From positions 1 to 61,457 of the forward strand of contig CANQAV010000010.1 of the NCBI GenBank assembly GCA_947589425.1: 61,457 nt of DNA, written 5' to 3'. This document shows positions 29,282 to 35,025 of this stretch, piece after piece. Both the position numbers and the translations under genes were made by a program. The notes under the pieces were generated by a model. The model was not told the origin of the DNA and did not search any database. It saw only the letters and a list, made by a program, of their open reading frames with translations. This DNA is from Candidatus Gastranaerophilales bacterium. GTDB taxonomy: Bacteria > Cyanobacteriota > Vampirovibrionia > Gastranaerophilales > Gastranaerophilaceae. The number at the start of each line of letters is the position of its first letter. Positions within the stretch are counted from its first letter, which is position 1.

Positions 29282-29461
29282 TTAAACACCTTTTTTCTAT
29301 ACGCAAATTATACTATAAAATTCGGGCTTCGGTTTAAAATGTAAAGTTTGGATAATATGTTAATTTTTGTAAAGAAAATAAACAGATAAGTAAATTTTAA
29401 ACTACAAATATACTTTATATATATGTAAGAAATAAATATTATTTCACAAGACTTATAAAAC

Positions 29462-29495
29462 ACACACTAACCAACACACTAACCACACACTAACC
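29462..29495 (+). repeat. Three near-tandem copies of an 11-mer
   Basis: ACACACTAACC occurs exactly at 29462-29472, 29474-29484 and 29485-29495, about 35 bases upstream of the terminator stem. This is either a protein-binding array or an unstructured segment of a small transcript. Confidence 0.75.
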
Positions 29496-29529
29496 TATTC
29501 ACACGAGAATCAAGCAAAAGATTTTCAAG

Positions 29530-29558
29530 GCCTCTTTTTTAAAGAGGCTTTTTATTTT
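29530..29558 (+). terminator. Rho-independent terminator with no gene upstream
   Basis: GCCTCTTT pairs with AAAGAGGC (8 bp, loop TTT), followed by TTTTTATTTT on the plus strand. No plus-strand protein gene precedes it, so it implies a short RNA from the 29400s. Confidence 0.8.
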
Positions 29559-29561
29559 ATA

Positions 29562-29635
29562 TGCGCCCAATGGGACTCAAACCCATACTCTTTGGCTTCG
29601 GAGACCAATGCTTTATTCGATTAAGCTATGAGCGC
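29562..29635 (-). tRNA. tRNA-Arg (anticodon CCG)
   Basis: 74 bases. The acceptor GCGCTCA pairs with TGGGCGC, D-stem GCTT/AAGC, anticodon stem TTGGT/GCCAA (one G-T pair) with loop CTCCGAA, T-stem ATGGG/CCCAT with loop TTTGAGT, discriminator A. Anticodon CCG reads CGG. The T-loop has T instead of the usual C at its third position. CCA is not encoded. The D-loop (AATCGAATA) lacks the usual GG pair. Confidence 0.88.
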
Positions 29636-29736
29636 ATATTATAATAATTATTTTATAACAGATAAAATAAAAAATATTCTTTCAATATATCTTTTTTGAT
29701 ATTGGATTTTTTTAAAATAATCATTAAAGTTTAAAA

Positions 29737-34485: not shown

Positions 34486-35025
34486 TTATTTCTTGCCGGC
34501 TTTACCTGCTTTTCTTGCAATGTATTCGCCTTCATATTTTACACCCTTGCCTTTATATACTTCAGGAGGACGTTTAGAGCGAATTAAAGCCGCAATGTCA
34601 CCTACCATTTGTTTGTTTGTTCCTGATACGGTGATTTTTGTATTTGCTTCAACCGCAATTGAAATTCCTTTTGGAGGCTCAATTATTACAGGGTGAGAAT
34701 AACCTAAAGATAAATTGATTGCACTTCCCTGCATAGCTGCACGGTAGCCGACACCAACTATCTCAAGCTTCTTTTCAAACGGTGTTTTAACACCTGTGAT
34801 TGCGTTTGAAACAAGTGTTCTGAAAAGTCCGTGAAGGCTTCTTGATTTTCTGTCTTCGGCTTTTCTTTGAACGATAACTTCTTTACCTTCAACTTTGACT
34901 TCAAGTTCACAAGGAAATTCAACTGTTTCAGTTCCTTTAGGACCTTTAGCACTTAAGGTATTTCCTTCAATCTTTACTTCAACGCCGTCAGGTATTGAAA
35001 TTGGTAATTTGCCTATTCTTGACAT
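34486..35025 (-). CDS. rplF: Ribosomal protein uL6
   Basis: 179 residues. Binds the base of the L7/L12 stalk region and contacts the sarcin-ricin area. 'MSRIGKLPISIPDGVEV' and 'GVGYRAAMQGSAINLSLGY' mark the two L6 domains, and the C-terminal motif is 'IRSKRPPEVYKGKGVKY'. Order and direction are those of the spc region. It is followed by the repeat spacer. Confidence 0.97.
   Translation of the reverse strand: MSRIGKLPISIPDGVEVKIEGNTLSAKGPKGTETVEFPCELEVKVEGKEVIVQRKAEDRKSRSLHGLFRTLVSNAITGVKTPFEKKLEIVGVGYRAAMQGSAINLSLGYSHPVIIEPPKGISIAVEANTKITVSGTNKQMVGDIAALIRSKRPPEVYKGKGVKYEGEYIARKAGKAGKK

Follow-up and report, generated by a model that had tools for sequence, protein, structure and literature searches.

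The closest described system is LhrC1–5 of Listeria monocytogenes, which comprises five multicopy small RNAs (sRNAs) of 111–114 nt that are under one regulator (LisRK) and carry three redundant seeds per molecule, with which they bind a target mRNA 5' of its start codon and impede translation (PMC4132741). In Streptococcus, several related CiaR-dependent csRNAs belong to the regulon of a single regulator and have comC as a target (PMC3091779, PMC4507080). A third point of comparison is cyanobacterial Yfr1, an RNA of 54–69 nt that has a 5' stem-loop and the sequence ACUCCUCACAC, unpaired between two stem-loops (PMC2190773).

Here, we analyzed a 61,457-nt stretch of a Candidatus Gastranaerophilales genome (the window), in which the region between 29.42 and 29.56 kb probably encodes a trans-acting base-pairing sRNA that would occlude ribosome binding sites in part of its own regulon. 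The likeness to LhrC is one of logic, not sequence, and consists of multiple copies, a single promoter type and redundant seeds. While LhrC seeds are CU-rich with UCCC and are distributed over two loops and one single-stranded segment, the seeds here read ACACACUAACC, are all predicted to be unpaired and stand in tandem, and no TCCC occurs in 29421–29557. LhrC depends on LisRK. The genes predicted as targets here have the same promoter pattern as the sRNA itself; LhrC copies are described as near-identical, whereas the two copies in this genome (the second at C7:82222–82366) are 82% identical, with one to five matches per genome across the genus. The resemblance to the CiaR csRNAs lies in related sRNAs within one regulon, in a different host. 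Yfr1 and Yfr10 share an ultraconserved unpaired 11-mer, a 3' terminator and lineage-wide conservation (PMC2190773 and PMC6778093), but the 11-mer here is a different one, occurs in tandem copies and is not preceded by a 5' stem-loop; ACUCCUCACAC is absent from 29421–29557 and the predicted fold of the RNA likewise lacks a 5' stem-loop. In line with what is generally expected of trans-acting sRNAs, the locus combines a promoter and a terminator, has no ORF of 40 aa or longer on the plus strand that overlaps 29400–29560, and contains a conserved seed that is predicted to be accessible, with predicted complementarity to mRNA leaders.

The original prediction, made from the letters of the window, was of a small RNA with an 11-mer repeated three times at intervals of 11–12 bases. 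Three exact copies of ACACACTAACC are present, spaced 12 and 11 bases apart (Table 1), and they are all of the matches in the window at up to one mismatch (0.19 expected; none of 100 shuffles reached three). Searching for the 11-mer elsewhere, as had been proposed, returned sRNA copies only: across the whole genome and on either strand it occurs four times, the fourth being located in the paralogue encoded on contig C7. The predicted plus-strand terminator at 29530–29558 is real and has a T-rich tail, but its stem, at 29527–29551, lies slightly to the left, and the minus-strand tRNA-Arg was found next to it as described. The RNA from 29431 to 29556 has a predicted folding energy of −19.1 kcal/mol (z = −7.1; none of 200 shuffles equally stable), with the repeats single-stranded, followed by a hairpin of 7 bp and the terminator with its 11-bp stem. 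Between 28500 and 30600, terminators numbered 3 compared to 1.5 in shuffles, while a generic sigma-70 scan gave 10 promoters compared to 9.0, which is no excess; the promoter was identified by conservation. Its distal box is conserved at about −50 to −37 with variable spacing (logo of 75 sRNA promoters) and is also found 5' of other genes that have the AATT-N14-TACTTTATA promoter.

Table 1 Features of the sRNA locus (positions in the window) and other promoter sites of the same class in the genome (by contig)
Feature	Position	Strand	Remarks
Distal upstream box TTAATTTTTGTAAAG	29360–29374	+	Family form roughly TTAAN4-5GTAAC
Promoter AATT-N14-TACTTTATA (29393–29419), overlapping the 21-mer TATACTTTATATATATGTAAG (29409–29429)	29393–29429	+	
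Predicted small RNA, ~137 nt	29421–29557	+	Inferred from promoter and terminator; 5' end ± ~10 nt
Seed repeat 1, ACACACTAACC	29462–29472	+	Fully unpaired in prediction
Seed repeat 2, ACACACTAACC	29474–29484	+	Fully unpaired in prediction
Seed repeat 3, ACACACTAACC	29485–29495	+	Fully unpaired in prediction; CACTAACC in 71/76 family copies
Second conserved motif, ACACGAG	29501–29507	+	Invariant or near-invariant columns in alignment A1 (44 copies)
Conserved hairpin, GAGAAUC...GAUUUUC	29505–29526	+	Forms in the predicted fold of the window copy; covaries across 74 distinct copies (helices 1–2)
Intrinsic terminator, 11-bp stem and T tail	29527–29557	+	Two-sided changes in all nine modelled pairs (helix 3)
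tRNA-Arg, convergent neighbor, outside the sRNA	29561–29636	−	Adjacency kept in five relatives
Promoter site, ~290-aa glycine-rich protein (leader at 34511–34549, minus strand)	C3		
Promoter site, 211-aa protein	C16		
Promoter site, 255-aa protein	C1		
Promoter site, 107-aa protein	C23		
Promoter sites, two identical 57-aa proteins (MKLEITENFDKKL...)	C1:12630, C2:73629		
Promoter site, RHH/CopG-type protein	C4:61327 (L059)		Pfam RHH_1
Promoter sites, two MGW coiled-coil-like proteins	C11		
Promoter site without an ORF within 170 nt	C3		126-aa ORF begins 284 nt on

Copies of the unit are widespread. A DNA search with 29400–29640 matched 44 of 58 genomes (own genome included), often in several places, although part of these matches cover the tRNA or the promoter alone, and those in L006–L010 extend through the tRNA-Arg too. 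Alignment A1 was made from 44 copies, after 52 had been extracted and 5 without a script-found terminator and 3 with over-long ends were dropped. Since MAFFT had misaligned the small hairpin in A1, RNAalifold recovered only the terminator from it, and we built a covariance model from 23 of the 44 rows, using the body of the RNA alone and excluding the promoter. This model matched every one of the 28 genomes of the genus (own genome included), with 76 matches in total, some of them at contig ends; two were in the genome studied here, where the window copy was matched at 29471–29557 (91.6 bits, E = 8e-13). In a sample of 192 genomes from the order, 144 had matches, spanning 27 of 45 genera; the E-values are rough owing to a short calibration.

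In the aligned copies the common order is a promoter, an A/C-rich stretch with CACUAACC units, the ACACGAGAAUC hairpin and a terminator. Two to four ACTA(A/C) units are present in 61 of the 76 copies. The promoter was found with 71 of them, and the other five are either cut by a contig end (3) or diverged (2). Among 19 loci at the level of the family, all have AATT-N14-TACTTTAT upstream, though the model excludes the promoter; by reading, they keep CUACCUACUACACACUAACCUU or CCUACACACUAACCUU and then ACACGAGG or ACAUGAGG, and their hairpin is GGAAUU..AAUUCC or similar. The ACACGAG motif, also by reading, is kept in most of 19 copies from other genera, with about five having ACATGAG instead. A C-rich element (CCTCC, CCCC or CTCCC) occurs no more than 30 nt after the promoter in 38 of the 71 copies with a recognized promoter (for example, L028, L076 and L097); it could be a second, anti-Shine–Dalgarno seed, and is not found in the window copy.

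Over 74 distinct copies, the modelled base pairs can form in 95.6% of cases and the covariation score was 0.547, compared to 0.210 for shuffled and at most 0.167 for slid alignments, in an alignment whose fitting to the covariance model favors this result. A recurrent terminator-ended unit with its own conserved promoter and covarying predicted hairpins supports, on comparative grounds, the guess that the locus specifies a small RNA, which is probably transcribed from that promoter. It is highly improbable that the locus is instead a repeated DNA element or a tRNA terminator: it is indeed multicopy and adjoins the tRNA-Arg, but its terminator is strand-specific with a promoter on the same strand, its hairpin covaries and copies are located at many sites without the tRNA.

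The family is a multicopy small-RNA family absent from Rfam 15. Only three tRNAs were matched in the window, the best hit for 29380–29570 at a lax threshold reached 25.4 bits compared to a cutoff of 55, and for 20 loci with copies from other genera no family reached its gathering cutoff. Literature searches on Melainabacteria small RNAs and Gastranaerophilales regulatory RNA returned no title on such an RNA, with Rfam being the firmer test. The pattern CACACTAACCN{3,8}CACGAGAATC was found in none of the contigs of a viral collection, and a scan of genome contigs with the two-repeat pattern gave one match, in Paraburkholderia.

The promoter is shared with other genes. The 21-mer TATACTTTATATATATGTAAG has five exact copies in the genome, two with one mismatch and one with three, compared to one in the control. 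Using the looser pattern AATT-N{8,18}-TACTTTATA, we found 19 matches compared to 26 in the reversed control; 12 of the 19 share a spacing of 14, and these comprise the two sRNA promoters and ten further sites, of which nine are directly 5' of an ORF (Table 1). The two 57-aa proteins have near-identical promoters and no match in Pfam or NCBIfam. A small RHH gene (MARVLISMPEKF...) is located behind the same promoter in three genomes from two genera (G000 L059, G025 L225 and G034 L121), and its product is a possible regulator of the regulon itself. Another gene behind this promoter type, with a tag in its leader, encodes an HD-domain protein (L192 and L219 in G015, L217 in G013; Pfam HD_5, 4e-16 for the G015 copy), and in another family of the order, f7, a TACTTTATATATATGTAAG promoter element lies upstream of ORF starts (L034, L123 and L124).

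The original prediction also pointed to GGTTAGTGTGT-like sites complementary to the 11-mer. Such sites exist as GGUUAG and UUAGUGUGU in leaders behind the same promoter, but the full 11-base complement is absent from them: predicted complementarity is split into two shorter sites. Simple genome-wide searches for targets also pointed to split, shorter sites. In this genome, GGTTAGTGT has 13 matches, which comprise four in sRNA copies, six on contig C19 and three others that no ORF of useful length follows; in 28 genomes, GGTTAGTGTN{0,20}ATG has 71 matches compared to 45 in the control, 18 of the 71 being sRNA antisense by coordinates. Contig C19 itself (L245, 1–20000 in G000) has 18 palindrome-like GTTAG-N5-8-CTAAC sites in 20 kb, such as GTTAGTGTCAACTAAC, whereas the window and 19 further 20-kb segments of the genome have none; it has many small ORFs and is perhaps a phage-like contig.

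Using leaders chosen by promoter alone, we found that four of nine distinct leaders in this genome, which are ~30–60 nt long, carry G/U-rich sites complementary to the repeats. Predicted duplexes of these four with the repeat region range from −17.3 to −22.8 kcal/mol (36, 45, 76 and 5 of 1,000 shuffles as strong) compared to only −2.9 to −7.5 kcal/mol for the other five, with the restriction to the repeat region having been decided after the results for the whole stretch and for longest matches were known. Those results were mixed: z-scores of single leaders against the whole sRNA stretch were mostly unimpressive, with A/T-rich matches dominating, and the longest exact matches between sRNA and mRNA leaders showed no excess over shuffles at the 5% level. 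In three of the four pairing leaders, the main sites are at least ~20 bases 5' of the start codon. This position, together with a promoter pattern common to sRNA and targets that would lead to both being produced together, is what might be expected if pairing activated or protected the targets; we consider this quite improbable, because in the main target the predicted pairing covers bases adjoining the start codon and the leaders are short.

The clearest candidate target is the gene of the ~290-aa glycine-rich protein, which was followed by protein search to avoid selection. Orthologues are found in 28 of 28 genomes of the genus, in 27 of which the gene has the promoter pattern (all but G016). 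The protein has no Pfam match above the cutoff and no NCBIfam match at E = 0.01, and a profile of five orthologues gave no sequence match in the PDB. Its leaders contain GGTTAG in 26 of 27 cases (not G023) and GTGTGT in 22 of 27, usually in the layout ...GUGUGU...(A)AGGUUAG...AUG. GUGUGU and GGUUAG are each complementary to one half of ACACACUAACC, and their order is such that a single leader can pair with CUAACC from one repeat and ACACAC from a repeat farther on. Across the 27 genomes, mean predicted duplex energy was −15.8, whereas shuffled leaders gave −14.5 (an equally low value in 3 of 200, z = −2.6). In this genus, the pattern ACTTTATAN{3,28}GGTTAG is not enriched (26 compared to 48 in the reversed control), and 16 of its 25 distinct sites are behind an AATT box at the exact distance, twelve of which, by reading, precede ~290-aa orthologues.

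Genome-specific pairs of sRNA and leader did not pair better than mixed pairs in a permutation across the 27 genomes using 54 sRNA stretches rather than all 76 copies (10,774 of 20,000, p ~0.54). Two genomes, G013 and G015, have UAACACUAAC in the sRNA with GUUAGUGUUA in the leader (two leader types), where the genome studied here has ACACACUAA with UUAGUGUGU; given the negative permutation, we make no claim of co-variation beyond these two. The case for base pairing comes from appropriately placed complementary sites in several genes that are unrelated to each other, rather than from a general co-variation test. The lack of significant matching overall would also suit an RNA that acts as a sponge or scaffold for a protein recognizing ACUAACC-like units, with a logic like that of CsrB and with incidental leader complementarity, as would a motif that is unpaired, near-invariant and repeated in most copies. 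We nonetheless regard a sponge as unlikely, as what the leaders of several unrelated genes with the same promoter contain is not the motif but its complement (GGUUAG, GUGUGU).

In other genera, the sRNAs have CUACCU or AACCUAC 5' of CUAACCUU, and leaders have AAGGUUAG...AGGUAG, matching CUACCU...CUAACCUU of their sRNAs; in G133, for example, predicted pairing consists of CUAACCUU:AAGGUUAG plus AACCUAC:GUAGGUU. Comparing equal windows in 30 loci from a family-wide search, with the sRNA loci added for other starts, we found AGGTAG within 45 nt in 10 of 21 leaders with promoter and GGTTAG compared to 3 of 114 other ORF starts (3 of 117 in a first run with a 30-nt window); the Fisher value of 2e-7 overstates independence, since the ten leaders represent 5 of ~12 gene groups by our own grouping. 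For four genomes with both sRNA and leader available, pairing of equal strength was reached by 17, 10, 2 and 15 of 500 shuffled leaders, a result favored by the choice of leaders for GGTTAG. Across 191 genomes of the family, ACTTTATAN{3,28}GGTTAG was weakly enriched (290 compared to 230 in the control; binomial p 0.01, Wilcoxon p 0.13), with the excess confined to six genera (164 compared to 43).

GGUUAG and AGGUAGG might instead be a lineage-specific ribosome binding site or a promoter DNA element, with the sRNA matching by chance or acting on other mRNAs. The motif is at Shine–Dalgarno distance in the main target and directly abuts the promoter in many leaders, and the C-rich 5' element (as CCUCC, CCCC or CUCCC) occurs in many sRNAs of relatives (38 of 71 copies, not the window copy). 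However, AGGTAG precedes few other starts, an ordinary AAAGGAGA is found at the RHH gene, which has the same promoter, and GGTTAG was missing from the 60 nt after the promoter at all 53 sRNA sites (0/53), which makes this explanation rather improbable.

In the base-pairing mechanism that we favor, an sRNA of ~137 nt, one of two copies in the genome, would be produced from a promoter class that also precedes about ten other genes. The 5' part, predicted to be unstructured, would display tandem ACACACUAACC seeds, and its 3' part would form the small hairpin and the terminator. On the leader of the main target, one repeat would use its CUAACC half to pair with AGGUUAG just 5' of the start codon, and a following repeat its ACACACUAA half to pair with a UUAGUGUGU site a few bases upstream, with tandem repetition of the seed making the pairing both bipartite and redundant. 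Pairing over the ribosome binding region would lower translation of those regulon members in the cell, so that targeted members would be damped whenever the regulon is switched on, presumably by a common regulator. More tentatively, one promoter class for sRNAs and targets, together with leader tags (GGUUAG and GUGUGU, or AAGGUUAG and AGGUAGG) read by the tandem seeds, may possibly constitute a lineage-wide address code that has been rewritten jointly in some clades (G013 and G015, and the AGGUAGG genera); if so, the presence of a tag would sort each regulon member into a damped or an undamped class.

Because seed and leader have changed jointly in G013 and G015, the base-pairing idea is directly testable. 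The layout of tandem seeds and split sites would explain why the motif is repeated. If the proposed mechanism is correct, the promoter would define a regulon consisting mostly of unnamed proteins, and the lineage would gain a conserved regulatory RNA of its own with predicted targets.
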